Shown in pieces: positions 6,694-43,707 of a stretch of 64,000 bases of DNA. Each line of letters starts with the position of its first letter. Within the stretch, counting starts at the first letter, position 1. The stretch comes from Vicia villosa (taxonomy: Eukaryota; Streptophyta; Magnoliopsida; Fabales; Fabaceae), in NCBI RefSeq assembly GCF_029867415.1, contig NC_081181.1:74930144-74994143 (forward strand), read 5' to 3'. A program made the position numbers and the translations under genes. The notes beneath the pieces are model-generated. The model did no database searches, was not told the DNA's origin, and saw nothing but the letters and a program-made list of their open reading frames with translations.

Positions 6694-7084
6694 GATTCTC
6701 TTCTCGTTGTTTCTGGTGCGGTAAGGATGTAAGAAAGTCAACTTCGTCGTCGGAAAAGAAATCTGTGTTGGAAGGGACCCCAATTAGAACCTGATAAAGA
6801 CCTGAAAATGCAGTATGATATGAGTGCATGGGTGCATGTGTGCATGTTTTATTATTTTCAAGACTTTTTGGCTTTGCCTCAAACCAACAACACCAGATAA
6901 TGGAAGAAAATAATGAAGTATAACCAAGATAAACACAACCAAGATAAGCAAACATAATTGATTAATTCTGCAACCAAGTTCTTGAAGTACAAAATATTCT
7001 GCTCCCATGAGCCAACAAATACAGAAATAAAATCAGGAATCCCATCCAACAGGTCTGGTGGTGATTCTACAACAAAATCAACAT
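6694..7084 (-). other. Spacer between ORF1 and gag of element A
   Basis: There are 391 bases with no convincing coding potential between the ORF1 stop and the chosen gag start. In it the minus strand has several short runs of T and A and a few upstream ATGs, including the in-frame one at 6,783. How gag is translated downstream of ORF1 is not evident: no overlap or slippery site is visible. Confidence 0.6.
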
Positions 7085-8893: not shown

Positions 8894-9766
8894 GTGTTGG
8901 TCGGAGACAAAGCCAAATTTTCCTGAAAATAAATGAACATGCCTGTCAAATGATATGGTGGAATGCATTTCATTGGGAGAATCCTAAGGTCTTTTCATTA
9001 TTTCTTTTCTTTTTCTTTTCTTTTTCTTTTCTCTTTTCTTTTCTTTTCTTTTTTTTTTGTTGCAAAAAGTGCACATTTTGTCACTATTTTTGGAAATAGA
9101 CTTTAGGATTCTCCACGAATGAAGTGAGGTGGATGCAATAACATGATGTGTCATGTGTGTGATGCAGTGAGAGACTGAATGTCCCTCGCAGCTCTGAATA
9201 ACTGGGTAACACTGAATGTAGCAGGTTCAAAATTCCGGCTTCAGATTGCAAAATGGAAATCAGGGTATGATGAAGGCTAGTATCCTGTCCCACCCCAAAC
9301 TCACAGGTATGAATTCTAGACACGGACAGGTGGTCACTAACGGTCACCAGGGTCTACAGTTCCCATGGGGTACAAAGTGTTTGAGGCAACAAGCGTGCCA
9401 GACACAGTGTTCCATGAAAGAACCTCGCCCAGTTGTGGTACCCCATGTCAATCTCAGCCATAGCAAGCGCTACGGGAGTCAACATGAGCATCCACGCTAA
9501 TCCTATGTGTCACTTGGCCTGGGTAGTGGGCCTTTTACATCATACAAACCCCCCACCTGCAAAACAGAACAGAAGACCCCAGGGAACACAAAATATAATC
9601 CATATGCATGATGTGCAAACAGAAATAAACATGATATGTAGGCAAAGAATAAGCATGCAAACATATATACAAGGTATAGACATAAAAACAAGTAAACACC
9701 CAGTAAATAAACAAACAAACGCAGGCTAGGATCGACTCGCTACGACCCACAATAGGTCTAGCAACA
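8894..9766 (-). other. Leader (5' UTR) of element A
   Basis: Sequence between the PBS and ORF1, read on the minus strand. Part of it (about 9,560-8,975) is clearly related to the opposite-strand segment 14,104-14,765 of element C: both share the gcaggt(t/g)gg block, the aaaaggccca/acccaggcca block and the AAAGTCT...purine tract...TTAGGAT block. The purine tract (minus strand) lies at 9,001-9,056. No long ORF is present; several short upstream ATGs exist. Confidence 0.75.
8976..9114 (-). repeat. Inverted repeat enclosing the purine tract in the leader of A
   Basis: The plus-strand arm GGAGAATCCTAAGGTCT (8,976-8,992) pairs with AGACTTTAGGATTCTCC (9,098-9,114): 17 positions with one mismatch. 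The roughly 105-base loop holds the long pyrimidine run (purine in the transcript). The structure ends about 80 bases before the ORF1 start. The same arrangement is seen in element C at 14,602-14,763. Confidence 0.85.
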
Positions 9767-9784
9767 TCCCCAGCAGAGTCGCCA
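9767..9784 (-). other. Primer binding site of element A (tRNA-Arg type)
   Basis: On the minus strand TGGCGACTCTGCTGGGGA, complementary to the 3' end of a tRNA ending in TCCCCAGCAGAGTCGCCA. Ogre elements are known to use tRNA-Arg. It lies two bases inside the LTR end (TG on the plus strand at 9,787). Confidence 0.9.
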
Positions 9785-9810
9785 GCTGGCGCACGCTCGC
9801 GAAAAATGAA

Positions 9811-9821
9811 CAGAGTCGCCA
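9811..9821 (-). other. Partial PBS copy inside U5 of A
   Basis: The minus strand repeats TGGCGACTCTG, the first 11 bases of the primer binding site, 27 bases upstream of the true PBS and inside the LTR. The C LTR has the same copy at 25,908-25,918. Confidence 0.85.
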
Positions 9822-10243
9822 CCAATATATTTATCCCATAAGGGAAAGGAATATCAGAAAACCTAGCAAAGGAAGGAACAGGGTCTTGCGACCAGAGAAT
9901 CTAGGTACGGGAGTCGGTTACGCAAGGGGAAGGTATTAGCACCCCTCGCGCCCATCGTACTCGATGGTATCCACCTATGTTTGTTTCTATATAAAGGGTG
10001 TATCTATGTCTAAACCTAAATGCGAATGAATGCAAAAAGAAATACGGGGAAAAGAAGGAATTATTTACAAATGTGCTCGTTCAATCCCCGCTACTTGATG
10101 CCTACGTATCCCTTTCAGGAATCAGAGCGCCGTAGTTCGGCTCAAGATTCGTTTGTTTTTGTGTTTTTTAGTTGGGCGGAGTTAACGCTCGCGCTCTTGC
10201 ATAAGGGATCGACCTAGGATGCAATAGAGCGGAGATAACAATG

Positions 10244-10416
10244 CCCTTAAGAAAAGGAGATGAGAGAGAGACTTTGAGTGTTTCGAGGAAATCCCTTAAG
10301 CAAGGGAAACTCGAGTTACTCTTTGGTTGGTGTTTTTTAGAAGTTGGGAACTTACGCCTGAATGGGACCCTTAAGCAAGGGAGATCCAAGCACTCGAACA
10401 TTCCCTTAAGCAAGGG
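10244..10416 (-). repeat. CCCTTAAGCAAGGG hairpin units in U5 of A
   Basis: Three exact copies of CCCTTAAGCAAGGG at 10,293-10,306, 10,368-10,381 and 10,403-10,416, plus a degenerate copy at about 10,244-10,257. Each is a 5-bp stem (CCCTT/AAGGG) with a 4-base loop. Flanking bases are partly shared (aactcgag, cactcgaa, gtttgagc). The array lies in the same place in the LTR as different hairpin arrays in B and C. Confidence 0.85.
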
Positions 10417-12104
10417 ACGTTTGAGCTTCCATTCCCTTTTTAAGAATTTTCACTTTGATTATTAGTGTTTTAAGTATTTTCTTTGTATTTTTTATGGGGA
10501 ATTTATTCAAGTATTTTTATTAGTGTTTTATGTTGAAAAGAAAAAGAATGAAAGAGGGGAGACTAACCTATTTTCTAGCCTAATTGTTATTCTAATCTAA
10601 GTCTAATGGAATGGGGGAAAGTTGTTTAAGCATTTCACAATATATTGAAAATATTCACAAAAAGAAAGAGAAATAAAATCTAAACTATTCACGAAAAATA
10701 TTCACAAGCAAATTGCATTTTTTATTCATGTTAGAAACTATTTTTGAATTAAAACAAAAAATTACTTATTTTTTTATGGTTTACTAACCAATCAAAAATT
10801 ATAGAAGAAAAAAAAAGGCAAACAAATCAATTAAATTCTAAAATAGAACCTATAAAATTCTAAAAAAACCGATTGGTTAGAAACACATTTTATATTGATT
10901 TTGTTTAAGAAAAAATTGAATTAATATGCAAATGGAAATGGAAAGAAAACCTATTTTTATTATTTGTTTTTGTTAGTCAGCAGGGGGTGCAAAAGCATTT
11001 CAGAAAGAACTAAAATTATCTACAAGCAGAAATAGGGCCCAAAATAGGGGGGGTGTGAACAACATAAGCGCTAAAGCCCAGTCCAGAAGTGTGTGGTGCA
11101 TTAGCAACAAGGGGGCGCAATTCTGAAAAGGGCAAGGCCCAACGCACCTACGGCCCAATGTTACAAACTAATTACCAATTCTATTTCAATTTATTTTGTG
11201 TTTCATTTATTCAATAGCATATGGTTTTATTATTGGAACGTGACATGAAAGTATGCAGCATTAACATCAATTGGTCATTTGAAGTTTAAGTTGAATAAGA
11301 CAAAAATGAGTCAAGGACCAATCAGAAGCAAGCAAGTCATCCACTAATCATTAGCAAAAATAAAGCACTATTCGGATAAGAGAAAGTGACTGGTACATGC
11401 AGGCCACGTGCTCACCTGAGATGCAACCTCTAAACCTAAACGCCGGCGCCGGAGGTTACTCCGGTCACCTTCTCCGACTGTTCCGCGGCGGCGTCCTACA
11501 CATTTTTTTCAGAAATCCACAAGGCTAACACTGTTCGCCTCGGTTTTTTGCGTAGATGATGGATCTGGCCTCAATTTCCCTTGATTCTTGCTCAAACCTC
11601 AGAACCGAATACAACTTTAAAACTCTAACATCTAACATACTCATCAAAATTCATACTAATAGTATCAAAACGACTCTTACGCTTTCTTGAACTCAAACAT
11701 GTGAATCAAACACTCGAACATCAACAAAATCATGCAAACCGAATCTAACTCTAGCGTTGTATTAAACTTCACACGAACGTCACGCACAGTAACACACGAA
11801 GGATGCATTCAGATATGATTGAGACTATCATGCTTTTGGTATGTAGAGAAGGAATTGAGAAAGCTTACCTGATGAATCTTTGTAAGGAGCGTATGAAAGA
11901 CGACCTTGCGATCTCACTCCTTGCCTTCGATCTCGATGATATTCTCGGCGAAGCTGATGATGATGAAGCTAGCTCAAGAAACCAGTACACTAATGAAGAT
12001 GATGATGACTCAGGTTGAATGGAGAAGCTGTAGATCGGTGGAAGATGCAGTATAGATTGATGAGTACGATTGGAGACTGATGAGGGAGGTTAGAGGTGAT
12101 TAAA

Positions 12105-12204
12105 GGTGGCCGGAGAGTTCTGTTATGGAGGTTGGAGGGGGTTGTTATGGTGGCCGGAGAGTTCTGTTATGGTGGTTGGAGGGGGTTGTTATGGTGGCCG
12201 GCGA
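12105..12204 (-). repeat. 44-bp tandem repeat in the LTR of A
   Basis: A unit starting ggtggccggagagttctg recurs at 12,105, 12,149 and (partial) 12,193 with one substitution. It falls just downstream of the predicted transcription start of A, in R or early U5. Confidence 0.9.
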
Positions 12205-12350
12205 AGTTAGTTACAGTGGCAGTCGGTGGTGGAAGGAGTGGAGAAAGAAAGAGAGGGAATAGGGAGAATGGGAAGAGAGTATTTGGAGTGAAGGAAAGTG
12301 TGAGTGTGAGAGTTTATGAATCGTGAGAGAGTGTAGAGTGAAGGCTGTAG

Positions 12351-12364
12351 CTATTTTTATATGG
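12351..12364 (-). promoter_or_regulatory. TATA box of the A LTR
   Basis: Minus-strand CCATATAAAAATAG about 1.75 kb into the LTR. The comparable position in C carries ATATAAAT. It predicts a transcript start near 12,330. Confidence 0.6.
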
Positions 12365-14095
12365 CAAGTGATTAGTGAGTGGTGAGAGCTTTTTGAGTGT
12401 GGGACTCTAATGCATAGCTTTGCAACAACTTTTCTCATTTTTTGAATGTGGGACTTGGGATGCAATGCTTAGTGAACAAGTATATGCATGTATAGTAAGT
12501 CTTCGATGAGCTTTTCTGAATGCAGGTTCTGCATGGGCCTTTGTAGCAATGAGTGATAATGACTTGTCAGCAACATCTTCATGCAACACCATCCCAAGAC
12601 ACCATCTTTAATCATGTGAAACTATGGCTATAGCTCACCATCTTTCTTAAACTTGGAGCCAATTTAGAGAGACCATAGCATAATTTAAATTTGAAGTTGA
12701 AGGCTTCTTGAGATGATGCTTGGAAATATAGAACAGTGAACTGGAACATGGTGGGTTGTTGCTGCATGTGGCTTGTGCGCGTGGCTTGGCTTCTGGCTCG
12801 TGGTCCTTGGCAAAATAGCACCTTGAGCAGGGCTCGACTTTGGAGTCCTCTTTCTCATTCCCCTCTTATCCAAAATTAATGATCTTGATCTCATTGGATA
12901 GAGGGCATGACATAGAACATTTAAAGATCAATCTTGCTCAAGGTGGAGACTTGTGGAGGAAGAAATTCGAATGTGAATCTAGCCTACCATGTGCTTGATG
13001 ATATGCATGCGTGCCCAGAATTTTATGCCCAGCCTTATGTTGCATTCCGGCCAGTGTGAGGGCATGACTTTGGGGGCTTGTCATTTATTCAATATTCATC
13101 CAATTCACTCAATTCTTGTTTCAATGGATAGAAGAGATGGCAAGGAAGAGATGCATACCAAGCTTGAACTCATGGCACTTCTGTAGAGCTCTAAAAATGG
13201 ATGGAGATTTGGCATGCCATGCGTTTGTTAAAATGCCAGGTCATGACCTGACTTGTGACCTGGAATATGACTTGGTTCAAATGAGTTTTCAGCAACTTCA
13301 CAACACTTTAGCTCTTCATACAAGCTTCACATGAAAAAGTGTCCAACTACAAAGTTGTTCCCCTCCATGAGAGGAACAACTTTGATGTTGGAAATTTTTC
13401 CAAAAAACGCCATTTGACACGTGTAATCCAGTGCTGAAGTGGACTGCTCAACAAGATTCAAAACACCCACAAATTTTCTAAGTGTTGGAATTTTGCCTTT
13501 TTACTATTTTTTCCCAACTTTTTGCTGAACTCCCGATTTTATCCATCCTTCGACCTTTCTCGACTAATTTTCCTCCAAAAGTCAATATTTGAATAATTCT
13601 TCTGATTTTGACCCCAAAAGTCAACTGTTCTGATTTTTCCGGTTATTGATGAAATTCCCGATTAAATCTCTTCTAGCCAAATCCAGTTAAACAAACACAT
13701 CCACATAGTCAGTATGAGAAGCTTTTCACACATAGAAACCATTCCTGATTAAATGTTGACCAGAAAGTCAACTGGTTGACTTTGGTCAAAGAAACCCTGA
13801 TTTAAAGAACCAGATGATTTGCAAGCTTGCACTCTTCAATCAATGCCCTGATTTGAAGCAGGGAGACACCCCAATCCAGGAGGACTTCAATGAACATAGA
13901 GCCACATGATTATACCTCAGTTTTCTCATTCTCTGATCAAACTTCTTTGCAATGGAGCTTTTTCTTGCTAGCCCTTGAATAACACCTATGATATGAATGC
14001 ATGGGTATGGATTATGACCTAAGTGATGTATGTACATGAATGCAAAGCCTAAGCCAGTTAGAAGTTAAAGGGTAGGACAAATTTGGGGTATGACA

Positions 14096-14897
14096 GGGAC
14101 CACATATTTTCTCTGTTTGCAGGTTGGGTGGGATGTTCTATGAGGTAAAAGGCCCAATACCCAGGCCAGAGTTGACACATAGGATACCTAGGATAGAGTG
14201 GATAGTCATGACGCCAACAGAATGTCAGGTTCTGTTGATTGCGATCATGAGACCTGCGACCAGTTGAGGTTCAAATGAGATACCATTGTTGGCATGTATT
14301 TGCAACAATGATGGTGTTTAAGTCGAACTGTTAACGCTGGAGACCTTTTGACCTACCCTGACTTAGATTCACCTGTGAGTGGGGAGGGATATACATGACA
14401 GGTACCGTTGGTGACTATTCTGTTCTGATGGTGACTATTGTTCTTATGGTTCTGTGGTACCTATGCTGGACTTTTGATCTCGTGACATCTGACCTATATC
14501 AGTTATTCAGAGGATTGTGTAGTGGTTACTCGGATTATATGGACCTTGATCCCATGGTTTCACATTGCATAACATCATTACTTTATCCACTTCATTTGTG
14601 GGGGATTCTAAAGTCTATTTCCAAAAAAAAAAAAAGAGGAAACGGAAAAAAAGTAGAAAAAACAAAAAAGATGGAAAAGAAAAAAAGAGAGAAAAGATAC
14701 TATATGCAAAAAAAAAAGAGAATAAAAGAGAGACAAAAGTTGATGAAAAGACTTTAGGATCCCTTAGAAATGAAACATGCATTCCTACTATCATGCATTT
14801 CATAGTTCTCTCAGAGGCTTATGAGGGCCCTTTCTACTCCAATTCTGACTTCAGCAACAAAGTTGACTTCTCACCGCTATGTGCTTGAAAGTTAACA
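14096..14897 (+). other. Leader of element C
   Basis: Related on the opposite strand to the leader of A, including the block with a short gcagg motif, the aaaggccca/cccaggcca block, and the purine tract (14,621-14,750). The start of the leader and its PBS were separated by the insertion of A. No coding sequence is visible. Confidence 0.75.
14602..14763 (+). repeat. Inverted repeat enclosing the purine tract in the leader of C
   Basis: GGGATTCTAAAGTCT (14,602-14,616) pairs with AGACTTTAGGATCCC (14,749-14,763) over 15 positions, one of them a T-G wobble. The loop is almost pure A/G. It matches the structure in A (8,976-9,114), with stem bases that differ. Confidence 0.85.
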
Positions 14898-15249
14898 ATG
14901 GAACAACTCCGTGAGGTTTTCTGACTAAAATAAGAACGAAAATGGGGGCTGACATGAATCAGTGTATGGAGGTTATTCAAGCCTTTTCTCCTTGACAAGA
15001 AGAGTTGAGACAAGTTCTTCAAAGGCCAAATGCAACGTTAATCTCACCTCAAAAGAAGGTCCTATGAAGCAGAAGGTCTGAAATAATGTTGAGATTCCTA
15101 TTCTTGGTAAGGAGCATTCACATCATTGAAGTCTTCAAGTTTCCGAGTATTGAAATTGACGAAAGGTTCCACCTCTTGGAGGAAAGATTGGAAGCCATAA
15201 AAAGTCGTGACTCTGCTGATTTAGGTGTTGTTGGTTTGTGCCTGATGTA
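14898..15249 (+). pseudogene. gag: Remnant of the gag N-terminus in element C
   Basis: An ATG at 14,898 starts MEQLREVF and then stops; with frame changes, short recognisable gag pieces follow. The clearest is at 15,158-15,246, where DERFHLLEERLEAIK, then a short variable stretch and GLCLM, correspond to EERLKAVE...AALCLVP of the gag of A. The homology ends exactly where the gag domain proper would begin and a run of A follows. It is a non-coding relic with several stops. What is left is the 5' end of gag, the part that often carries RNA packaging signals. Confidence 0.75.
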
Positions 15250-15338
15250 AAAAAAAAAACTGCAAGGGTCATTTACTCTCACTCTGAATGGATATTGAAG
15301 CTAAAGTGGTAGTCATCTCTTGTACATGTGTGGAAGTT

Positions 15339-15840
15339 GCTTGGGGCTCCCGACCGAGGGATAAGCAAGACGTATTCTTATCTTGAGCATTGCGCCATTT
15401 GCATTGCTCGAATCCCTAAAGCGCTACAAATTTTTGTGCAACTTTGTCAGAATCTTTTTCCATGTGACAATCAAGACTGCTCTGCAGAAGCATTTCTCAT
15501 TCTCAAGCTGTTATTTCATATCCTGGGTCATCTCTTCTTGGAATTTTCTTCTCAGTGGCCTTTGCTCGTCAACAGAGAAAGAAAGAATATGAGAAATGAA
15601 CCGATGTAATTTCAAGGCCTTGTGCTTAGTTATATCCCTGATTATTGGTATCTCAGTTGGTGTTTAGGGTCTTCCTCACCACATATAGATCTTGAGTTCG
15701 ATGATAATGCAATATTCTTTCAGTCATGATGGTGATTACTGTTCTAGCATCTATATTTGGGGCTCCCGACCGAGGGATAAGCAAGACATTGTCTATCTCG
15801 AGCATTGCATCATTTGCATTGCTCGAATCCCTAAAGTAAG
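15339..15840 (+). repeat. Duplicated block with long hairpin
   Basis: The block beginning ttggggctcccgaccgaggg and ending ctcgaatccctaaag occurs at about 15,340-15,420 and 15,757-15,836. Each copy holds an inverted repeat: TTGAGCA/TGCTCGA (15,383-15,389 with 15,405-15,411) in the first and TCGAGCA/TGCTCGA (15,798-15,804 with 15,820-15,826) in the second; the difference between copies is a wobble-tolerated change. Confidence 0.85.
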
Positions 15841-16572
15841 GCAAAAATGCACCACTCTTGTACGCCTTTGTTGAAAGATTCTTCTGGGAAGTAACCTAAA
15901 AAGTGTGGAAGGAACATATGATGATGCTAAGTGGCTACCATGCTGGGGCACCTAGCCATTCAACTGAAGGTGGTAGGACATTCAAAGGCAGAATTCAAGT
16001 CCTCGTCGATTTCAGAACAACCACATCCACTCCAAGAGGTCCTATGCACAAATTGAAGTCTCGATGGGGTATCAAAACTGGAGAAAGCATTCAAGAGGAA
16101 TAAGTCCATACGGAGTCAAGTCTCCTCAACAATGGCATTCATTTAAGATCTTTATTGCATTCTCATTCCTAACATTTTGTTATTTGTTTAAGCATTGCTA
16201 GCATGTAAAATTTGTTAATTTCTGAATGAAAACCATAATGCATTGTTTATGTTTGTCTTGAAGTAATCCATTTGTTTTCACTAAAAAAAAGTGTTTTGGC
16301 ATTACGATACCAACTTTACTAATCACTTGCTTAGGCAAAGAGCAGAGGGAGAATGATGAAGAAAAAATAATGCAAAATCCCTAATTGTGTGTTTTTGAAT
16401 AAAACCCTACTGATGATGTACATGCATTGTTTCTAATCCCCAAACACCGGAGATATAAGGGAGATAGACCCTCGTTAACCCCTTTGAGCCTTGAAGTAGA
16501 AGTTTCTTTTCTGATCAGAAAAAACCCTTATTTTTAACCCTGGGGCAAGGTAGTGTTCATTTAACTTGATCA

Positions 16573-16725
16573 AGTGTTCAAAACTCATAAAGGGTACGCA
16601 TCTAAGGATACAACAATGGTTATCCTTCAAAAGGTTGAGGAAAGTCAAAACTGTGATGGTTATCCTTCACCTACCAAGAGGACAAAAGATGATGATACCA
16701 CAATGGTAATCCTTCATCAATCATG
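16573..16725 (+). repeat. Short repeat with core ggttatccttc
   Basis: The motif (a/t)atggt(t/a)atccttca recurs at about 16,615, 16,657 and 16,703 in a degenerate unit of about 45 bp. Function unknown; part of the 3' UTR of C. Confidence 0.6.
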
Positions 16726-16774
16726 GAATGAGGCAGTCGCAATCACTTCCAGCGAATCAAAGAAAATGCGAGGT

Positions 16775-16930
16775 CACACGATTTGTTTAGGAAAAAAAAG
16801 AAAAAATATGGCAAAAAATGAAAAGAAAAAAAATGATGAAAGAAAAGAATATAGCAATAAAAAGAAAAAATGATGATGAAAATAAAGCAAGAACAAAGTC
16901 GTGTGATAATGAATAATAGAATAAAAGGTG
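16775..16930 (+). other. A/G-rich tract in the 3' UTR of C
   Basis: About 130 bases of nearly pure purine (aaaaaagaaaaaat... type) inside the 3' UTR. It resembles the leader purine tract in composition but has no flanking inverted repeat that I can find. Confidence 0.6.
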
Positions 16931-17469
16931 AGCGACTGCCATGTCCAAAAAACCTCATTGATTCCTCAACCATTTCAGAATTCCTTGTGAGGGATGAGCA
17001 CTCATATTGAGTTAATTGAACTTAGGAGTGGAGAACATCACGAAGGGGGTGGGTACCAAATAATTTTGAGCCTAAAAATCCTTTGTTTTAAAAAAAAAAC
17101 CATGAACCAGGCCAAGTTACAACCCTTAAAAGTCCTAATTGAAGTAGGGTTTATTTCGAAGACGCACTCCCATGAGATAGTGTTTACTGACTCCCAATGA
17201 AGCGTAACACATATATGTTGGTATCGTATGCTCGCTTTATCTTTCATTCACAAGAGGTTGCAACCTCATTTCATAAAAAGTTTGCGTAAACTTCAAGACT
17301 AGCATAGGCTTTGAATTAGGATTGTCATTCTTAGAATTAACATTCTTTTGCATACAAAACATTTGCTTAAACATCAAGGAAGTTTCTATGATGAGAATCC
17401 ATGAAGAGCTTGATTGTGTCAAAGTTAGAGGACTTGAGAACTTCGTAGAATAAAGAGAAATCATTTCAG

Positions 17470-17840
17470 AGACTGATATCAAGGGGCATGTTGCCTGAAG
17501 ACTTCATTGAGCATAGGCAGTTAGTACCTTCGTTGTTTGATCATTAAGGGACAAGTGCCTGAACACTCCGTTGAGCCTGATCAGTTTGATATTGTTCTTG
17601 ATTGGTTACCCTTAGGGGAAAGGGTTGAATGCTCCATTGAGAAAATCAGTTGATACCTTCTTTTGATTGACTACCTTGAGGGGAGAAGTCGGAATGATCT
17701 GTTGTGTAGAGGCATTTTGATTAAGTACCCTAAGGGAAAGAGTTTGAAGACTCCATTGAGCGTGATAAAGTTGCTTCCATAGTTTGGTTGACTTCAAGGG
17801 AAGTAAACTTGATGATTCAGATAAGATGTACATAATCAGG
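17470..17840 (+). repeat. Degenerate 70-80 bp tandem units
   Basis: Four to five units sharing gaagactcCATTGAGc(g/a), a ccttagggg-like block and a variable dinucleotide-rich end. The units are diverged, so limits are approximate. They contain short arms such as CCCTTAGGG. Confidence 0.6.
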
Positions 17841-18040
17841 GGCAGTCACGACGAGGAATCTCTCTCGTGAATTCAGCCTATCTGGGGCAAGCAAATTAAG
17901 GTTTGACATCTCAAATTTGACCAATCAGGGTTAATCAAGTTGAGGAATCTCTCTCTTGATTTCAATCAATCTAAAGTAGTGACGTCGAGGAATCTCTCAA
18001 GCTCACTCAATCTGGGGCAATTACGTCGAGATTCGAAAAA
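17840..18040 (+). repeat. Units with core gaggaatctctc and exchanging stems
   Basis: Three units share the core cgaggaatctctc. In the first the core is enclosed by CACGA/TCGTG (17,847-17,851 with 17,865-17,869), in the second by AATCAAG/CTTGATT (17,933-17,939 with 17,955-17,961). The stem sequences differ completely but remain complementary. Confidence 0.75.
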
Positions 18041-18310
18041 TCTCTTCAAGGACCCGCTGATCAAGAAAGACCATTTAGAACACTTGAATATACTGGGGAA
18101 GATTATCTCAAGTGATTGTGGTGTAAGGATCCTTTCGAGGCAAATGTCTTTGTTAAATCAGATCTCTTCGTAAGTCAGGCAGCCTGGGGCATAATCATGT
18201 TGGTTTGTATTGAAGAACCGCCATTCACCTGGTAAAGTGCAGTTGACAATCACAAAGTGGAGAAGTATCACAATGCTTTTCCCCCAGCAAGTTACTCTCT
18301 CCCCAAGCAT

Positions 18311-18411
18311 AGGAGTTTATTTCTCCTGAGAGTTGATTCCATTCCTCAAATATAGGAGTTTATTTCTCCTAGAAATCTATCACTTCTCGAGCATAGGAGT
18401 TTATTTCTTCT
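18311..18411 (+). repeat. Three AGGAG-TTTATTT-CTCCT hairpins
   Basis: Copies at 18,311-18,327, 18,354-18,370 and 18,395-18,411, spaced 43 and 41 bp. The third has CTTCT in the second arm, which still pairs with AGGAG through one G-T wobble. Confidence 0.85.
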
Positions 18412-18959
18412 AGGAGTTGTTCCGCTTCTCCCAACCAAGGTTCCTTATATGGATTTCTAATCCCCGACTTGGTGAAAAGAGGGAATCTCCTCATGTCCAA
18501 AATCCTCCAAGCAATGGCACATGGCGAGAAGTCATAAATTATTCTTCAAGTCAAAGAAGAAGTATATCTTGCAAGATTAAAGTCCAATGTCTATTGGCAC
18601 CCCCACAGAGTTCTTAACACTAAGGGGATTCTCCCTGGTGTTTACCTCTGCCGAGGTCAGAGACGAAGTTCAATCGACAAGTCAGTGGAATATTCTCTAA
18701 AGGACCCTCGTTATCTCTGCATATAGTAATCATTGCATTCACATTGCATCTATAAAAACGCGTAGCATTTCCATGAATATGGAGCATTACGCCATAAAAA
18801 ATCAAACATGCATAAGCCAAGTTTGTTTGTGCTCCAAAGGCACAAAATAATATATCCTCAGAAGAAGTCTCACTTTCTCCCTCTAGTGTGGATTGGATAC
18901 AGAGTCATTCTTCGTCAAGATCATTGTCTCTATGGTTATTTCCCATTTGCTGAGCTCAA

Positions 18960-19450
18960 TCGTTTGGATATCCCATACTTTGTGTGTGGCAATTTGAATG
19001 ATTGTCACTCTTGTAGAATTACACCCCGCCTTTTGGCCTGAGGGAACCATGTAGTTCTTATGTTCCGTGAATAACAATACCTCCTCCAAAGTCCAGTGTT
19101 TACTGGCATCATCTAATAGAGTCTGGTCGTCACCAGTCTTCTCTTTGTACTTACTTTTTGCGAGTCCCCTTACTGCCTTTTGCATAAGGGATATCTCTTG
19201 CTTCTTGCAAGTTTGCCTTGGTTATTTTCCCGTATGCTGCGTGCAGATTAGAGTGCGAATGAGGGTGGGCATTCAACCCATCTCATTTTTCAATCATTTG
19301 GGTAATCATACTTGGTGTGTGGCAACTCGAATGAATGCCACTCTTGAAGAGTACACCCCGCCTTTTGGCCCGAGGGATCCATGTAATTCTTATGCTTCGT
19401 AAGCATCAATGCCTTTTTGAAAGCCCAGTGTTTACTGACATCCCCTGATT
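18960..19450 (+). repeat. Duplicated block with accccgccttttggcc
   Basis: Two diverged copies (about 18,965-19,130 and 19,300-19,450) share gtgtggcaa, tgtcactcttg/gccactcttg, acaccccgccttttggcc and the following cc(a/c)agtgtttactg unit. The second contains ACTCT-TGA-AGAGT and ATGCTT-CGT-AAGCAT hairpins. Confidence 0.7.
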
Positions 19451-20270
19451 GATTCTAGTTGTCACTAGCCTTCCTTTCAGTCAAGTCCAATGGTTATTGG
19501 CATCACCTTCAAATCCAGTGTTCATCAACATCCCCAATAGAATCTAGTCATTGCCAGTCTTCTTCAGTCAAGTCCAATGATTATTGGCATCTCTTTCCTT
19601 AAAGTCCTGTGGTTACAGGCATCCTTCAGTTAGGTCTGATTGTTATTAGTCCTATCCTTCAAAGTCTGGTTGTTACCAGCAAAAGTCCTGTGGTTACAGG
19701 CATCCTTTGGTCAGGTTTAGTGGTTACTAGTCTGTTCCTTTAAAGTCCTGTTGTTACAGGCATCCTTCGGTTAGGTCTGATTGTTATTGGTCCTTTCCTT
19801 CAAAGTCTGGTTGTTACCAGCAAAAGTCCTGTGGTTACAGGCATCCCTTGGTCGAGTCTAGTGGTTACTAGCCTTTTCCTTAAAGTCTTGTGGTTACAGG
19901 CATCCTTCAGTTAGGTCTGATTGTTATTAGTCCTTTCCTTCAAAGTCTGGTTGTTACCAGCAAAAGTCCTGTGGTTACAGGCATCCCTTGGTCGAGTCTA
20001 GTGGTTACTAGCCTTTTCCTTAAAGTCTTGTGGTTACAGGCATACTTCGGTTAGGTCTGATTGTTATTAGTCCTTTCCTTCAAAGTCTGGTTGTTACCAG
20101 CAAAAGTCCTGTGGTTACAGGCATCCCTTGGTCGAGTCTAGTGGTTACTAGCCTTTCCCTTAAAGTCCTGTAGTAACAGACATTCTTTGGTCAGGTCTGA
20201 TTGTTATTGGTCCTTTCCTTTCAAGTTCGATTGTTATCGGCAAAAGTCCAATGATTATTGGCATACCTTT
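19425..20270 (+). repeat. Array of mini-hairpins with covarying stems, partly a 140-bp higher-order repeat
   Basis: About 27 units of roughly 30 bp, each with the form aagtc + 5-base arm + 4-base loop (GGTT, TGTT or GATT) + complementary arm. Stem pairs read directly: CCTGT/ACAGG (19,606), CTGGT/ACCAG (19,666), CTAGT/ACTAG (19,857), CCAAT/ATTGG (19,487), CTGAT/ATTAG (19,636), CGAT/ATCG (20,228). From 19,807 to 20,227 five different units form a block repeated with an exact period of 140 bp (starts 19,807, 19,947, 20,087). Confidence 0.9.
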
Positions 20271-20280
20271 TCGGATCTAG

Positions 20281-20800
20281 AGTCACCCTTCGGATGTGTC
20301 TCTTTTTGAAGTCTAACTGAGGTTAGCAAATTAGGATCGGATTCCCCTTCGGTTGGTTTCATCCTTTATCGAGTCACCCTTCGGCTGTGTCTCTTTTTAA
20401 AGTCTAACTAAGGTTAGCAGTTTGGTAGAGTCATCTACGGATGGTTTCTTCCTTGTGGAGCCACGCTACGGTTGTGTCTCTTTTTCAAAGTCTAACTAAG
20501 GTTAGCAGTTTGGTAGAGTCGTCTACGGATGGTTTCTTCCTTGTGGAGCCACGCTATGGTTGTGTCTCTTTTTCAAAGTCTAACTAAGGTTAGCAATTTG
20601 GTAGAGTCGTCTAAGGATGGTTTCTTCCTTGTCGAGCCACGCTACGGTTGTGTCTCTTTTTCAAAGTCTAACTAAGGTTAGCAATTTAGTAGATTCATCT
20701 ACGGATGGTCTCTTGTTGAGCCCCTTTACAGTTATGTTTCTTTCAAGTCTAACTAAGGTTAGAAATTTGTTTGAGATCCACCTTCGGCTGGTATTCTTTG
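20281..20800 (+). repeat. 88-bp tandem repeat at the 3' end of the C UTR
   Basis: About 5.5 units beginning agtctaactaaggttag, with starts near 20,310, 20,401, 20,489, 20,577 and 20,665, then a shorter one at 20,746. Every unit has CTAAC-TAAG-GTTAG, a GAG-n-CAC...GTG-n-CTC arm pair with a cttcgg or ctacgg loop, and a further pair around ctacgg. The array lies 140 bp before the LTR. Confidence 0.9.
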
Positions 20801-20928
20801 ATAATACTCGATACTTTTTGCTGTACCACGGAATGCAAATTTTGATGGTACTTGCGGGGTATTCCATCCACTCGCACCTCAAATGTCCAAAACCCAGGAT
20901 GTTTATACATTCAGGTCCAAGAAGATTG

Positions 20929-20940
20929 AATAGGGGCAGC
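20929..20940 (+). other. Polypurine-like tract before the C 3' LTR
   Basis: The bases aataggggcagc directly precede the LTR start TGTTGCACCCC. This is where plus-strand DNA synthesis would be primed. It is short and not pure purine. Confidence 0.65.
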
Positions 20941-23086
20941 TGTTGCACCCCAAAATTTGCCCACATATTTATTCCCCAACTGGCTTTCATATCACATTCA
21001 TATGCATACCTCATCTAGGCCACTCATCCATTACATTCATTCATATCATGGTTACTATTCAAAAATTGATAAGAAAAGAGCTTCTGCAGAAGAAATTCCT
21101 AATAAAAAATAAGAGAAGATTTGAAGTCTGATTGTATGACATCATTCCCATTGAAATCCTCCTAAAATCAGGGTTTCATCGTCTCCAAGCCAAAGCTTTG
21201 ATTAAAAGATACAATCCTCAAGTTCCTCAAGCTTTCCAAGTTAGGGTTTTGACCAAAGTCAACCCTGTTGACTTATTGGTCAAAATTTAATCAGAAGATG
21301 ATTTTTGGGTATGAAGTATGGTTTCCTTGAAGAAATATATTCATCGAAGCTTCTTTGGTTGAAAACTGATTGAGAATTGGATCAGAAACTGATTAATCGG
21401 GAAATTCATCTGGAATCGGAAAAATTAAGAAAAGCTGACTTTTTGGTCAAAGTCAAGGTCAACTGTCAAATATTGACTTCTGATGGGAAAATCGCTCAAA
21501 GAAAGTCAAAGAAATAAATAAAATCAGAAAATTATCAAAGTTACCAAAATTGGAAAATTAGTTGAAAATGGGAAATTACCAAAAATAGAAAGTTTGAGGA
21601 CTTAGTGAAAATATGGAGAATTTGAGAATGGATGAGAAGCCCGCTTCACTATCATTTTACACATTCCAAAAGGATTTATTTCAAGAAAATTTTAACATCA
21701 TAGTTGTTGATTTCATGGAGATCCACAACTTTGTAGTTGAAGGTTTCTTCATTAGAAGCAAGGATAAAAAGATACAAAGCTATGAAGTTGGAAGGTTCCA
21801 AGTTATCCAAGACAAGTAGCTGGGCAAAAAATTTGGGCATGACGCGAGCATTTGATCAAACATTTTGTGTGCCATTTTTGAAGTTAATTTCAGAGAAGTA
21901 AAAGCATCACATGGAGTCAATTCCAATTTCATCATACTCTATTCCATGCTCCTTATACAATGAGCCAAAAAACATTGATTTTGGTGGTGTGGTTGAAAAA
22001 ATATAGGGCTCCAAAGTCATTCCCTTGCAACTGTACTTGGCTGGCCCTTTGGGTTAGGGCACGTGCATGCATTTCATCAAACATGTGGCGTGTCACATTC
22101 AAGCCCAACTTTAGAGATCTACGAGCATTCCCTTGACTCAAACTTCACACCAAGCTACTCTATCCTATGGCCTCTATCCAACGGGCTCAATGTCATTAAT
22201 TTTGGTGATATGTTTGTCAAAATATGGAGCCTTAAAGTAGGTTGCTTGAAGGTGTAAAGAAGCTATGGGCATGATGCAATTTTTGGCCACACGAGTCGGT
22301 GATGATCATGTAACTTTAGGGCTCACTTTCATGCATCTAGGAGCCTCGTCACTCAATCTTTCCAATACAAAACATGTTGTATCATGAGTCCTCTTTGCTA
22401 CGAATCCAAGAGCAAAACATTCGTGGTGGAGGTTGGAAAATTAGAGAACCTTAAAGTGGAAAGCTCAGGATTATTGAATTGGCAAGCATTGGTTCGATGG
22501 GGCGGCAGTATGGCATATACCATCATCATTTCAAAATCCCTCGTTACAGTGAAAGTGAGTCAAGTATCGGTCCATGGAAGAAGCTATATGCATGATAAGT
22601 GTGCCTCTTAAACACTGAAGTCATATGACGTACTGAGTTGAAAAGAAAACAAACTATTGCTCGAAGAGATTGATGGCTGCAACATTTCCAATTTGGTCCT
22701 ATCCATCGACTTGCCGTAGCCTCGTATCAATCCATATCATTCCTGAAACTCATCGACATCAATGGCATGCTATCATAACTCTTTTTTATCATAAATCTGA
22801 ATCAAGTAAGGGTCTGTGGAGTTTATTGCATGCACGCGAAGCCAACACTATGAACCTGAGTCATACGATATTGGCACGATGGTTTGGTATCAAAAATGCA
22901 AAGTTGATGGACAGGATGCAACACGATACGCCATGGGCACAACAAATTGCACCGTCATGCGCATAGAAGGAATTGATTACCACAAGTGTATAAGAGAGAG
23001 CATACTCCAAGTGAAAATGGACTGGCATGGTGAATTTAAAACAGAAGCGCTCAGCTACAAACCACACCATAACAATACACTCACCA

Positions 23087-23093
23087 TATAAAT
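23087..23093 (+). promoter_or_regulatory. TATA box of the C LTR
   Basis: ATATAAAT preceded by caccaca-rich sequence and followed by a CT-rich start region, as in plant promoters. About 2.15 kb into the LTR. Confidence 0.6.
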
Positions 23094-25028
23094 GTCAAAA
23101 CCTTCACAATTCACACCACACGCTTTCACTTTCATTTCCTCAATCTTCACATTCTTCTCCATCATTCTCTTCTCTCATTCTCTCATTATTCTCTCCCACT
23201 TCTCTATCCATAAAAACTCCTAACAAACTTCCAACCACCACACCAATCTTCATCTTCTCTTTCAAAGCTTCACCACCTCCATAACCGTTTTTCGCAACCG
23301 TACCTCCATTATCGGTCATCACCTTCACCACCTTCGTTAATCAATATCATCATCAATCATCTTCAATATTCAAATCATAATCATCGTCGCGATACGGTAT
23401 AATCATCACCAACTTCATTCTCTTCATGTAACACACAAATGGTTATGGTTTCTTGAGGAAGAAATTTCGGTTACGTATTTCTTCCAAGTGTTCATCACTT
23501 CCGGTATCCACCTCCAAGATTCAAGAGGAGTTTGAGTTTATTTCTCAGTCTGTTATAGAGGCATCGTACACGTGTCCTGATCCGAACGCGAAGAGTAAAG
23601 GTTTTTCAAAGATCCTCGTTCGATATTCACAACAGGTAAGTTCTCGTAAACCTTTCTCAGCATGATAGAAATATGTATAGGGGATGTGCATTTGTCACGC
23701 TCTTGCTTGATTTTTGGGTTCGGATCTACTTTTGTGCTTTGATTTCATGGTGTTAGCGTTCGTTTCACTTGAAATGGATATCGTATGTGGAATCGGAGAG
23801 AAATTCCGAGGGGAGAGAGGGTCTTGCTTTTTGTTTCCGACGTTGGTGGTTGTTGGCTCCGCCGTGGATGGCAGCCCGATCCGCCGGAGAAGAAGATGCT
23901 TGTTGCGTCACTGTTCACGTGAGAAGCATGCTACGTTCTCATATTTTTGTTTTCAATTATTAATTATGGAATGACACGTGTTGCATCATAATTGGCCCAT
24001 GGATGTATTTTTGTCCTTTTGTAACTTAAGTGTTAGTTGACCTATTGATAATTTTGCTAATTGTTTCAATATGTGTAGGTCACATTTTTACTTATTTTAA
24101 TAATGCATGTGATGAATAAAAATGAGAAATAAAAAAGGTATTGGACTAAGACTGGTAACTGGGCCTGGCGCGTTGCTTCCCACACCCCTAACACTGGGCC
24201 CAAAACGTGTAACACTTAGAGCCAGTGCATTTCCCTTTTACTTTTTCACCCCTTGGTAGACAGATTTTTGTTTTACTTGCAATTTTATTTTCTCTTTAAC
24301 TCTTACTAGTTTTAACTGAGATAAAAATAAATAAAAATATGATTTAGGTAGTTTCATGTGTGTAGATACTTTTTGTATTTTTTATAGATTTTTAGAATTT
24401 AGTTTACTATTTTTAATAAATCTTTTCTTCACATATGTTCATTTCCTTTCTATGTTTGCTATGTTTTACAAAATAATTTGTTTAAGTGCCTTAGGAGTCG
24501 AATCTAATTGCCAATTTTTGTGTGATTTCAGTAGACTAATACATGATAATGTGTACAAAAATGAAGTTCCAATTCCTTGTTTTGGTTAGGTTTTTGCTTA
24601 GGGTTTTAGACCCGATTAGTGTGTGTTTCTAATTGACGTTTGTGTTGATTTGTGCTCATAAGGTGCCATGAACTTTTGTAATTAATTTGGATCCTTTTTG
24701 TACATATAATTAGGGATGTTTAGAGGTCCTAAAACCTGAAGTAGAATTTTAAATCACTTTTCTTCTATTTTTACTTGAATTTTTCTTTTTATATGTACAT
24801 AATTGCTTCGTTTAGTATTTCCTTGTGAATAATTTCATTTTGATTGACATAGGGATAGAACTTCATCCTTGTATATCCCCTTTAGATTTTAGTTTAGATC
24901 TTAAATAGGATTTAGAATAACAATTAGGCTAGAAAATAGGTTAGTCCCCCCTTTTTTCATTCTTTTTCTTTTCAACTTTAAAACACTAATAAATAAAGAG
25001 GCGAATCACATTAAGAAAGTGATAGAGA

Positions 25029-25290
25029 AATGAGTGGGATTAATTCCCTAATCTGTTTCTCAATCACTTAGTGGCATAGAAATGAGTGGGATTCATTCCC
25101 TAATCTGTTTCTCGTTCACTACTTAATGGGAGAGAAATGAGTGGGATTCATTCCCTAATCTGTTTCTTGAACATTAATTAATGGGATAGAAATGAGTGGG
25201 ATTCATTCCCTAATCTCTTTCTTGAACATTATATATGGGATAGAAGTGACTGGGATTTATTCCCTAATCTGCTCCTCGATCATTATACAT
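25029..25290 (+). repeat. GGGATTCATTCCC hairpin units in U5 of C
   Basis: Five copies of tGGGATTnATTCCCTAATCT, near 25,035, 25,087, 25,142, 25,197 and 25,251, with a period of 52-55 bp. Each can form a GGGA/TCCC stem with a 5-base loop. The place in the LTR is the same as that of the unrelated CCCTTAAGCAAGGG units in A. Confidence 0.85.
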
Positions 25291-25907
25291 TTTTATGTGA
25301 TTCAAATAGCAAGGTAAATCCCCTTAAAAAATACCCAACCAAAAACACTTAAAACACTTAATAAAGGCTCGAATTAAAACAAAGTAATGAAGTGGTGCGA
25401 AACCTTGTATTGGGTTTTGCTCATCATGTAGTTACATAAAAAACATAAACCCAATTCATTCTGCTGCTAAGAACAAGTTAAGTCCATTTCAAAATTAGGC
25501 GTATAAGTCTCCAAAGGTCGAGCATCGTGGATTGTGACCTTAACCTCTGTTCAACTAAAAAACACAAAACAAATGGAAACTATGGAGCCGAACTACGGTT
25601 GCTCTGATTCCTGAAAAGGATACGTAGGCATTGGGTCGCAGGGCCTAAGCGAGCACACTTGTAAATAATTCCTTCTTTTCCCCGTATTTCTTTTGCATGC
25701 ATTCGCATTTAGGTTTTAGACATTAGACACCCTTTAGATAGAAACAAACATAGGTGGATACCATCGAGTACGATGGGCGTGAGGGGTGCTAGCACCTTCC
25801 CCTTGCGTAACCGACTCCCGTGCCTAGATTCTCTGGTCGAAAGACCTTGTTCTTATTCTGAGTTAGGTTTCCTGGTATTCCTTTCCCTTATGGGATAAAT
25901 ATATTAG

Positions 25908-25918
25908 TGGCGACTCTG
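25908..25918 (+). other. Partial PBS copy inside U5 of C
   Basis: TGGCGACTCTG, identical to the first 11 bases of the Ogre PBS, 23 bases before the LTR end. Same arrangement as in A. Confidence 0.85.
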
Positions 25919-25941
25919 ATCTATTTTTCGCGGTAGCGACA

Positions 25942-26130: not shown

Positions 26131-29100
26131 TTAGGCGAAGTATTTCTTGACTGCGTCGACGTTCACAGGACGGGTGAATTCCTCTCCATCCATAGTCGTG
26201 AGTATTAAGGCACCTCCCGAGAAAGCTCTCTTGACCACGTATGGGCCGTCATAATTGGGAGTCCATTTCCCTCTCGAATTTGTGAGAAAAGATTGAATCT
26301 TTTTGAGTACAAGGTCGCCTTCTTTGATTGTGCGAGGTCAGACCTCTTTGTCGAAAGCTCTCTTCATTCTTTGTTGAGATAGCTGTCCGTGGCATAAAGC
26401 TGTCATGCGCTTTTCTTCGATTAAGTTCAATTCATCGAATCTGCTTTGACACCACTCGGCTTCTATTAATTTTGCTTCCATCAAGACTCTCATTGATGGG
26501 ATCTCAACCTCTATGGGTAGGACTGCCTCCATGCCATATACGAGGGAGAAAGGAGTTGCTCCAGTTGAAGTTAGTACAGATGTACGGTAACCATGAAGAG
26601 CAAACGAGAGCATTTCATGCCAATCTTTGTAAGTGATGACCATTTTCTGAATGATTTTCTTGATGTTTTTGTTAGCTGCTTCTACAGCTCCATTCATCTT
26701 TGGTCTGTAAGGAGATGAGTTGTGATGTTCAATCTTGAATTCTTCACAAAGTTCCTTCATCATTTTTTTATTGAAATTTGACCCATTGTCAGTGATTATC
26801 CTGCTAGGAATGCCGTAGCGACATATGATGTGATTCTTGATAAACCTGACGACAACTTGCCTTGTGACGTTTGCATACGAAGCTGCTTCGACCCACTTGG
26901 TGAAATAGTCTATGGCTACCAAGATGAAGCGATGTCTGTTGGACGCTTTTGGCTCGATCATTCCAATCATGTCGATTCCCCACATGGAGAAAGGCCAAGG
27001 GGAAGAGTTTATATTGAGAAGAGATGGTGGCACATGAATTCTATCGGCGTAGATCTGGCATTTGTGACACCTTTTTGCATACTGGTAGCAATCTGACTCC
27101 ATTGTCAGCCAATAATATCCTGCTCTCAGTATTTTCCTTGTCATGGTGTGTCCATTGGTGTGAGTACCAAATGAACCTTCATGTATTTCCCTCATGAGTG
27201 TTTCTGCTTCTTTCTTGTCAACGCATCTGAGCAGAACCATGTCGAAATTTCTCTTGTACAAAACATCTTCATTTAGGAAGAATCTGCCAGCTAACTTTCT
27301 CAAAGTTTTTCTATCTTTCTTTGATGCCCCAAGAGGGTACTCTTGTCTTTGAAGAAAGTTTTTGATGTCGTGATACCACGGTTTGTCGTCGATGATTGCT
27401 TCTACTGTGAACACATGAGCGGGTCTATCTAGGCACATAACATCGATCTGAGGAATGTCGTTGCAATGATTTATCCTAATCATGGAAGAGAGTGTGGCTA
27501 ATGCATCAGCCAAGTTACTTTCTTCACGAGGAATGTGATGAAAATCTACCCTATCGATGAATGGCAACAATCTTCTCGCGTAGTCTTTGTAAGGGATTAG
27601 CCCAGGTTGGCGTGTTTCCCATTCTCCTTTGATTTGATTGATGACCAAAGCAGAATCTCCGTATACATCCAAGTGTTTGATTTTTAGATCCACGGCTTCT
27701 TCGAGACCCATGATGCAAGCTTCATACTCGGCCTCATTGTTTGTGCATTTGAAAGTTAATCTGGCAGTAAATGGAATATGGGTACCTCGAGGGGTAACAA
27801 TGATTGCCCCAATTCCTCGTCCAAAAGCATTGACAACTCCGTCAAAGATTAAGCCCCATTGGGATCCTATCTCAGGCCCTTCGTCTGGTAGCGGCTCGTC
27901 GTAATCTTTCATCTTGAGGTACATAACGTCCTCGTCTGGAAATTCAAAACTGATTGATTCATGACTATTGAGTGGGTGGTGAGCCAGGTGCTCAGCTAGG
28001 ATACTTCCCTTCACGGCTTTCTGTGCGTGATACTCCATGTCATATTCTGATAACAGCATCTGCCAACGGGAAATTCTCCCGGTTAAAGCAGGCTTCTCAA
28101 AGATGTACTTGATTGGATCCATATGGGAGATCAAACAAGTAGTATGTCGAATCATGTACTGGCGGAGACGCTTGGCAGCTCAGGCCAAAGCACAACAGGT
28201 TTTCTCGAGCACGGAGTAGCGGGATTCACAGTCAGTGAATTTCTTGCTCAGGTAGTAGATGGCATGCTCTTTTCTCTTTGTCTCGTCTTGCTGTCCAAGG
28301 ACACAACCCATGAAATCTTCTAAGACGGTTAAGTACATTATCAAAGGTCTTCCTTCCACTGGAGGAGACAAAATGGGTGGTTCGAGCAGATATTCTTTAA
28401 TGTTGTCGAACGCTTTCTGACAATCGTCTGTACAGACGCAACTTTGATTTTTCTGTAGAAGTTTGAAAATGGGAGCACAAGTTGCAGTCATGAGATATAT
28501 GAATCTCGAGATGTAATTCAGACGTCCAAGAAATCCTCTAACTTGTTTCTCGGTTCTGGGTGAAGGCATTTCTTGAATTGCCTTGACTTTGTTTGGATCC
28601 ACTTGAATTCCTCGTTTGCTGACGATGAAACCAAGGAGTTTTCTTGAGTAGACACCAAAGATACACTTGTTGGGGTTCAGACGAAGCTGAAACTTCCGTA
28701 AGCATTGAAATAATTTTGTCAGATTCTGTATGTGATCTTCCTCATTTTCTGACTTGGCAATCATGTCATCCACATAGACTTCCACTTCCTTCTGCATCAT
28801 GTCGTATAAAAGTGTAGTCATGGCTCTTTGATAAGTTTCCCCTGCGTTCTTTAGTCCAAAAGGCATAACGCGATAGCAGAACGTGCCCTAGGGGGTGATG
28901 AAAGTTGTTTTCTCCATGTCTTCAGGTGCCATTTTGATTTGGTTGTATCCCAAAAATCCGTCCATGAATGAGAAAACTTTGGATTTTGTTGTACTGTCAA
29001 CCAACATGTCAATATGTGGTAAATGGAAATCATCCTTAGGGATAGCTTTGTTCAAATCTCTGTAGTCGACGCACATGCGGACTTTTCCGTCTTTCTTAGG

Positions 29101-29574
29101 AACGGGAACAATGTTAGCTAACCACTGAGGGTATTCTGAAGTGACGAGGAAACCAGCATTGATTTACTTTTGAACTTCCTCTTTGATTTTCATAGCCATC
29201 TCCGGATGAGTTCTTCTCAATTTCTGCTTGACCGGAGGGCACTCTGCTTTTAATGGTAAGTGATGCTCCACTATACTGGTATCCAACCCTGGCATATCCT
29301 GATAAGACCAAGCGAAGACATCTGAGAATTCTCTGAGCAGCTGTATCAAACTCTTTCTGATCTATGAACTGATTTTCTTTTTCCATCGGAACCAAGGTTA
29401 ATGATCTCTAGAGGCTCATTGTATGGCTGAATGGCCTCTTCCTTTTGTTGAAGTAACCGAGAAATTTCCTTTGATATTTCTTCGTCTTCTTCTTCCTCTG
29501 CCTCGAATACAGGAAACCCAAAGCTTGGAGAAGTCATGCGGTCGTATGTTTCAACAGGGTGTTTTATGATTAAT
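26131..29574 (-). pseudogene. pol: Pol of element B: RT, two RNase H domains, integrase, with stops
   Basis: Starts after a gcag acceptor-like site (29,575). Reverse transcriptase with intact YVDD (about 28,775), RNase H, the second archaeal-type RNase H (WGLIFDGVV...NNEAEYEACIMG), the integrase HHCC finger and an intact-looking DDE core (GIDMIGMI, ITDNGSN, MNGAVEAANKN) are all recognisable, followed by a tail ending in a TAA at 26,131. In-frame stops lie at 29,164, 28,888, 28,180 and 26,338, and the frame changes at about 29,350-29,390. All four stops are at places where a C-to-T or G-to-A change would make them. The protein cannot be made in one piece. Confidence 0.85.
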
Positions 29575-29888
29575 CTGCATATGTGTGATAAATTTTATTT
29601 AGACAACGAGGGAAGACTCGGTGTATGCAGTTAATGGAATTTTTTTTTAGGGTGTTTTTTAGGATTACCAATTTCCGAAAAACGAAAAGGAAAAACTAAC
29701 GAAGGAACAAAATGACATTTTATTTATTGACAGCCATTTCTTGAAACAAAGACCCTATAAAACAAAACTCTATTGCTTTGGGCGAAGCAAAGAGGGACAT
29801 TTTCCTAAGAAATAGTAAAATGCAAAGCCCTATGAAACATCTCTTCACCCTGGGCTATGGTGAGAGGACAAAATAACGGTGAAAGTTC
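29575..29888 (-). other. Probable intron region of B between gag-pro and pol
   Basis: About 310 AT-rich bases between the last gag-pro frame (stop at 29,889) and the acceptor-like gcag next to 29,574, in the same position as the intron of A. The donor is not certain. Confidence 0.55.
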
Positions 29889-34110: not shown

Positions 34111-34401
34111 TCTTTTCTTGCGACTTGAACGAGTGTTGTATGGATGAGACAGCTTGAATGCCTTTGTTCACCTCCTTATCCTCCTCTCTTTCTGGAGAAA
34201 GGAAAGTGACTATTAGATCCGCGACAATTCTCGTGTCAGTGCGTACGACTAAAGCGATGCATGATATGTAATTAGTTTAATATTTTTCAAGGAAACACCA
34301 TAATTACGTTATGAAACATCAAACTTTTATTAATTAAGCGAAAAACGTCGTTCTTTACACACTTTGAAAAGGGAAATACAGAGAAACTGAGAGAAAGGAC
34401 T

Positions 34402-43703: not shown

Positions 43704-43707
43704 ATAG

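Follow-up and report, generated by a model that had tools for sequence, protein, structure and literature searches.

A covarying mini-hairpin array in the 3' UTR of a non-coding Ogre derivative of Vicia villosa: a candidate for selection on RNA pairing

The 3' untranslated region (UTR) of an Ogre-type retroelement of Vicia villosa contains an array of short hairpins whose two stem arms covary across many genomic copies. Structured RNA under selection should show more coupling between paired columns than shuffled, slid and tree-based null models produce, and the array does. Our preferred reading, to which we assign a probability of about 0.58, is that the array is selected for pairing in the sense RNA of the element. 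It was analysed in a stretch of 64,000 nucleotides (NC_081181.1, positions 74,930,144 to 74,994,143), hereafter called the window, to which all coordinates refer (Table 1).

Nested Ogre-type (Ty3/gypsy) elements occupy the left half of the window. Ogre 2 was apparently interrupted by Ogre 3, and Ogre 1 probably inserted into the 5' UTR of Ogre 3. Ogre elements are marked by an extra open reading frame (ORF) upstream of gag, very long LTRs and tandem repeats downstream of pol. Ogre 1 shows all of these, with a DUF7745 ORF before gag, a 5' LTR of about 4.3 kb and a 47-bp tandem array after pol; its Pfam matches comprise gag and DUF7745, the latter in the ORF upstream of gag (7,088-8,983). Ogre 2 has Pfam matches to reverse transcriptase (RT), RNase H, a second RNase H before the integrase, and the integrase: RVT_3 (residues 122-229) lies between RT_RNaseH (1-46; at 23.7 bits just under the cut-off) and Integrase_H2C2 (320-377). 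A second RNase H (aRH) between RH and integrase is given as a feature of Ogre and Retand in excerpts of PMC6317226, and Ogre 2 thus possesses this character of the Ogre (Ty3/gypsy, Tat) lineage. A further character of the lineage is an intron that separates gag-prot from pol; in the neighbouring coding Ogre elements, gag and pol are separate ORFs. The hairpin array lies upstream of a short tract that we take to be polypurine-tract-like and of the 3' LTR starting at 20,941, so that the + strand is the sense strand of Ogre 3; the initial annotation, which had placed the array in an Ogre 3' UTR, was right in this respect. Elsewhere in the window, two direct repeats of 820 bp (98% identical) enclose a stretch of about 3 kb containing a frame of zinc-knuckle and RT-like character (42,885-47,500), an arrangement that suggests a young and shortened Ty3/gypsy element in + orientation, and frames at 56,389-60,944 (+) resemble a broken Ty1/copia element when their translations are judged by eye.

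Table 1. Coordinates of the hairpin arrays and of the surrounding Ogre elements in the window.
Feature	Position	Strand	Remarks
Ogre 1 (coding)	45..14095	-	pol, gag, ORF1, 5' LTR; runs past left edge
Ogre 1 5' LTR	about 9,790-14,095	-	about 4.3 kb; followed by ORF1, gag and pol toward left edge
Ogre 3 interior, right of Ogre 1 insertion	14096..20940	+	host of hairpin array
Isolated unit in the frame of the array	18584..18597	+	CCAAT-gtct-ATTGG
3' UTR pieces common to Ogre 3 and coding Ogre 1	18715..19472	+	77-88% identity
Main mini-hairpin array	19089..20265	+	arm5-loop4-arm5; loops mostly TGTT, GGTT, GATT
140-bp higher-order repeat	19594..20249	+	five hairpins; 4.7 copies; 93% matches
88-bp tandem repeat	20280..20769	+	5.6 copies; six CTAAC-TRAG-GTTAG hairpins at 20,313-20,762
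Polypurine-tract-like sequence (presumed)	20929..20940	+	AATAGGGGCAGC; read from sequence
Ogre 3 3' LTR	20941..25941 (end approximate)	+	about 5.0 kb; TGTTGCACCCC ... GCGACA
Ogre 2 (coding)	26338..35901	-	reads 35,901 to 26,338

Ogre 3 itself does not encode Ogre gag and pol. No Ogre protein match was found in its interior (Table 1) except one gag-like match of 36 aa (E 4.5e-4). When the 10 kb upstream of the array were examined for coding content in 10 other copies, the same interior was recovered in every one of them, with 84-89% identity in pieces longer than 1 kb. Protein matches upstream of the array were confined to one pol piece, which lies at the outer margin of copy L101 and represents the far edge of another element. 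Among the matches listed, the 3' end of an LTR was seen upstream of this interior in at least eight of the 10 copies, with none listed for L095. A probe from the region upstream of the array found 2088 first-look candidates in the assembly, 40 of which were scored. Ogre 3 and Ogre 1 have LTR ends, 5' UTR pieces and 3' UTR pieces in common. By the similarity of these LTR ends and of the 5' and 3' UTRs, Ogre 3 may be filed as a putative non-coding Ogre derivative; it is presumably an abundant one that was moved in trans. Its non-coding interior also contains a block of about 80 bp (ggggctcccgaccgagggataagcaagac...) twice, at 15,340-15,840.

Mini-hairpins with covarying stems had been annotated initially from the letters of the window, and they were confirmed at that place and strand in a frame of two five-nucleotide arms around a four-nucleotide loop. 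The frame stands, whereas the initial count of about 27 units does not: selection by flank and loop from a mechanical list gave 32 units between 18,584 and 20,261, each with four or more standard pairs. The interval 18,584-20,270 had been described as one array, which is correct in location and too early in its start, as the first unit stands alone and the array itself starts at about 19,089; past the end of that interval, the 88-bp array holds the six CTAAC-TRAG-GTTAG units. Both examples of wobble-tolerated changes that had been pointed out, at 19,887 and 19,717, are correct. Among 37 of the 38 units thus obtained (32 plus the six CTAAC/GTTAG units), 26 are perfect, nine depart by G.U only and two contain one A.C, with 13 distinct arm pairs in total; the unit at 19,544, with three Watson-Crick pairs, one G.U and one A.C, was left out of this tally. 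A decayed further unit lies near 19,516. In a separate, window-wide mechanical count anchored at [AG][AG]GT sites, 37 of 62 sites qualified in 18,500-20,800, compared to 59 of 1000 in the remaining window and none of 21 on the antisense strand of the array. A covariance model of the family found 25 units at E<=0.01 in the 64-kb window, all of them on the + strand and within 19,089-20,265.

Searches of Rfam with 14,100-21,000 gave no match above threshold, and the one below it was antisense (22.1 of 35.7 bits, E 0.67). A coding function of the arrays was set aside, as periods of 140 and 88 bp are not multiples of three, and a DNA dyad for protein binding was set aside by the argument that such a site should hold its letters. 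The array pattern was also searched for in viral contigs (13 loci) and genome contigs (33 loci), where it matched once per locus, which was taken as chance. Immediate surroundings of the array contain other inverted repeats: upstream of it, at 18,300-18,420, there are three near-copies with repeats of the type AGGAG-tttattt-CTCCT.

Since the 140-bp higher-order repeat leaves few independent units in the window, the case for covariation needs other copies. Together with 39 further copies of the array, the window provided 40 loci, in which units were defined by the flank [AG][AG]GT and the loop [GT][GA]TT with free arms. This yielded 1076 units with 111 distinct arm pairs, including 26 types (35 units) that are not hairpin-like and were retained in the permutation tests; the observed pairing over distinct arm pairs was reached by none of 2000 shuffles. 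For the covariation score, 51 arm pairs that each occur in at least two loci were used. In this set 86.7% of cells pair, compared to 70.3% after shuffling, and the score of 0.567 was reached by none of 500 shuffles (mean 0.269, sd 0.030) and lay above every slid register, none of which exceeded 0.151. Two of the five measures are weak, as the number of pairs changed on both sides (five) was reached by 13 of 500 shuffles and the number of further pair types (13) by 89 of 500. The coupling is carried by stem positions 2-4, and position 3 shows UA, CG, GC, AU and GU, including purine-pyrimidine flips for which G.U intermediates cannot account. Because the units of this alignment (A1) were chosen by their loop, loop conservation was taken solely from a tally with free loops, in which, of 1175 fully paired anchored hairpins bearing any of the 25 commonest loops, 944 had TGTT, GGTT or GATT. 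Accordingly, about four fifths of the fully paired units use one of a small set of related tetranucleotides as their loop, and the letters of the stem vary. Regular-expression tables for other loops and for the 88-bp array were uninformative, owing to poor anchoring and the counting of overlapping matches.

Shared descent by itself could produce an appearance of covariation if a few chance hairpins had been multiplied by tandem duplication and transposition. Duplication has indeed been heavy, as evident from the 140-bp higher-order repeat, and about a dozen stems account for most of the 1076 units. However, when arm columns were simulated independently along a FastTree tree of the units, the score had a mean of 0.222 and a maximum of 0.491, and none of 1000 simulations reached the observed value; this tree was built on 22 columns, and units may recombine. 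Moreover, the founders would have frame and loop in common but unlike stems, and coding Ogre copies (see below) have the same design with other letters. We consider such a founder effect very improbable. The initial claim that the arms change together beyond chance was thus borne out against shuffled, slid and tree nulls alike, and a loss of stems in other copies of the family was looked for across the 40 loci, where the stems are kept.

Fold energies gave mixed results and did not single out the sense strand. In the window, the 801-nt core of the array has a z of -5.54 in sense and -1.52 in antisense orientation, but 300-nt windows from 40 copies contradict this result, with a mean z of -3.23 in sense and -3.88 in antisense and the sense strand lower in 14 of the 40. 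A higher stability of the sense strand was therefore not found over these copies, and the fold-energy z was dropped as support in its role as a strand test. LTR controls gave z near 0, and the 88-bp arrays had z of -0.66 (window) and 0.41 (copy L110) with no sense bias.

This lack of sense specificity counts in favour of a second explanation, in which template switching, at DNA replication or at reverse transcription, perfects short quasi-palindromes by copying one arm onto the other, without any selection. Excerpts of PMC8794818 describe this process as able to create and maintain hairpins, and the multi-base compensatory changes in short stems reported there resemble those of the array. Such templated correction would account both for the perfect stems and for the position-3 flips between purine and pyrimidine. 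Against it stand three features for which the published process, as far as these excerpts go, provides no reason (PMC8794818): G.U stems that persist, loops that are rarely inverted, and private variants that stay uncorrected. Widespread G.U stems are CTGAT/ATTGG (34 loci), CTGAT/ATTAG (27 loci) and CCGGT/ATCGG (29 loci). The perfect complement of the 5' arm occurs in 0 loci for each of them, and the perfect partner of the 3' arm in 28 loci (CCAAT for ATTGG), three (for ATTAG) and none (for ATCGG). One copy, L107, holds a full path via G.U, from CCCAT/ATGGG through CCCGT/ATGGG to CCCGT/ACGGG. Inverted loops are almost absent, with no AACC, AACA or AATC and two AATA as opposed to 944 TGTT, GGTT or GATT.

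The fate of variants bears on the same question. One-step variants of well-paired parents from 48 loci keep pairing in 9 of 13 cases if they occur in at least five loci, in 7 of 23 if they occur in 2-4 loci, and in 11 of 35 if they are private to one locus, whereas 0.34-0.41 is expected under neutrality from the mutation spectrum of 11 interior copies. This spectrum is near strand-symmetric (204:182 for singletons, 106:91 for shared variants); an alignment of 33 LTR copies had an odd spectrum, was probably misaligned, and was not used as a source. Among the mismatch cells of the 40 loci, the ratio of G.U to A.C is 13:3 (p 0.025) for arm-pair types present in five or more loci, 9:8 for those present in two to four, and 22:10 for those confined to a single locus; a ratio of about 2:1 already results from arm composition by itself. 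For the common class the propagation test gives a binomial p of 0.040, and a Fisher p of 0.024 against the rest; the p-values of the propagation and mismatch tests are modest, and these tests overlap. As private variants behave as if neutral and variants in many copies keep pairing, selection on the sense RNA is favoured modestly over templated correction, which we regard as unlikely, although a form of it confined to reverse transcription may still act. Both readings had been named as competitors in the initial annotation, and propagation, G.U stems and loops that are not inverted lend weight to the former, within the modest reach of these tests. A combination, in which template switching makes new perfect stems and RNA selection decides which stems and wobbles spread, would reconcile the position-3 flips with the excess of pair-keeping among common variants. 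However, no single template-switching event was identified in the copies analysed, and we deem this combination decidedly unlikely.

Hairpin arrays are not restricted to a single type. Among eight copies found by the upstream probe, L107 carries an array of the main kind, L112 a short array, and the other six (L108-L111, L113 and L114) arrays of CTAAC/GTTAG. In the coding Ogre 1, the 3' UTR just left of the window contains a 47-bp repeat (14.9 copies). In its fold (z -7.78 sense, -1.48 antisense), GATAC-tcgtct-GTATC alternates with GATGC-tcgtat-GTGTC, which has two G.U pairs. The last 96 residues of Ogre 1 pol were used to find related coding copies; 150 of 23,931 candidates were scored, and all matches listed had 100% identity. 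In three such pol-identical copies besides Ogre 1, pieces of the 3' UTR were examined. The array of L116 is of the Ogre 1 type. The copy represented by L115 and L118 has an array of another type, ATAAGATC-gccacga-GATCTTAT with GGAAAATC-gcacga-GATTTTCT; its unit type AGTTGATC/GATCTTCT in L118 retains two mismatches in five copies, and fold energies (z 0.43 and 0.33 for L115; -1.95 sense and -2.50 antisense for L118) have no sense bias. L117 contains one unit, from the downstream end of an array of this L115/L118 type. Coding Ogre copies with identical pol ends, few in number, thus bear two other hairpin arrays with unrelated loops. This argues against the recognition of one loop sequence, and the shape rather than any particular loop would be what counts.

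Two further kinds of motif were observed in these regions. Just after pol, Ogre 1 (L106 4480-4700, -) and Ogre 2 (window 26,033-26,110, -) have longer hairpins in a common frame with different stems, namely CTAGGT/ACCTAG, CTAAGTCG/CGACTTAG and CTGGATTG/CGATCCAG in Ogre 1 and CTAAGTTG/CAGCTTAG and GTGGATCG/CGATTCAG in Ogre 2. Departures from pairing are G.U save for one end mismatch, the z are -2.01 and -0.92, and these hairpins might form a second covarying set. The 88-91-bp arrays (window 20,280-20,800, L108-L114) repeat C(TTCG)G and C(TACG)G, which we take to be UNCG-type tetraloop motifs. In seven such regions C(TNCG)G occurs 81 times in sense and once in antisense orientation, compared to 4.6 expected, and the flanking stems mostly pair poorly; this enrichment was not used as evidence, because tandem duplication alone inflates the count.

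If selection acts on the sense RNA as we propose, pairing would be selected while the element still moves, stems would drift partly via G.U intermediates, and copies would decay neutrally after insertion. A non-coding element is selectable only for functions in cis, and we therefore propose that the array could be a multivalent structural cis-element of the genomic RNA, with many short stems between single-stranded linkers. Gag capture or condensation appears to be its most likely role, a suggestion we make with considerable doubt, and export or stability would be less likely. A broader and tentative proposal, to which we give somewhat less than even odds, is that the hypervariable Ogre 3' UTR works as a structural cassette whose contents can be exchanged: selection at the level of genomic RNA would maintain a rod of short hairpins while letters, loops and repeat lengths turn over, which might leave unrelated arrays in pol-identical copies and shed new satellite DNA.

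Retroviruses have cis-elements for export or packaging at the 3' end, such as the Mason-Pfizer CTE and the Rous direct repeats, which comprise one or two defined sites. The array of Ogre 3 resembles them as an RNA element near the 3' end of the genomic RNA and upstream of the 3' LTR, but it consists of dozens of short stems with changing letters, and its function is a candidate one. Macas and colleagues reportedly described, in 2009, tandem repeats within the hypervariable Ogre 3' UTR. Excerpts on Ogre/Tat elements likewise place tandem repeats in a hypervariable 3' UTR (PMC7004042; PMC3305785 for soybean Gmr9/GmOgre; PMC11963269 for Retand), and two of them regard these repeats as variable sequence that gives rise to satellite DNA and whose role is unknown (PMC7004042; PMC3305785). 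The array described here agrees with these repeats in its location between pol and 3' LTR, in the group of elements and in the variability of arrays among copies. It differs in that the pairing is constant and the letters change; hairpins or paired arms are not mentioned in those excerpts. Covarying hairpin arrays in Ogre 3' UTRs were not described among the literature matches listed, from which they appear to be new, whereas tandem repeats at the 3' end of Ogre are already known.

These results suggest that what Ogre preserves in its highly variable 3' region is the folded shape and not the letters. If pairing is indeed kept, the question why this region is always rebuilt and yet so variable could be put to the test, and a single legume genome would, with its many copies, offer a natural mutagenesis of a retroelement RNA structure.
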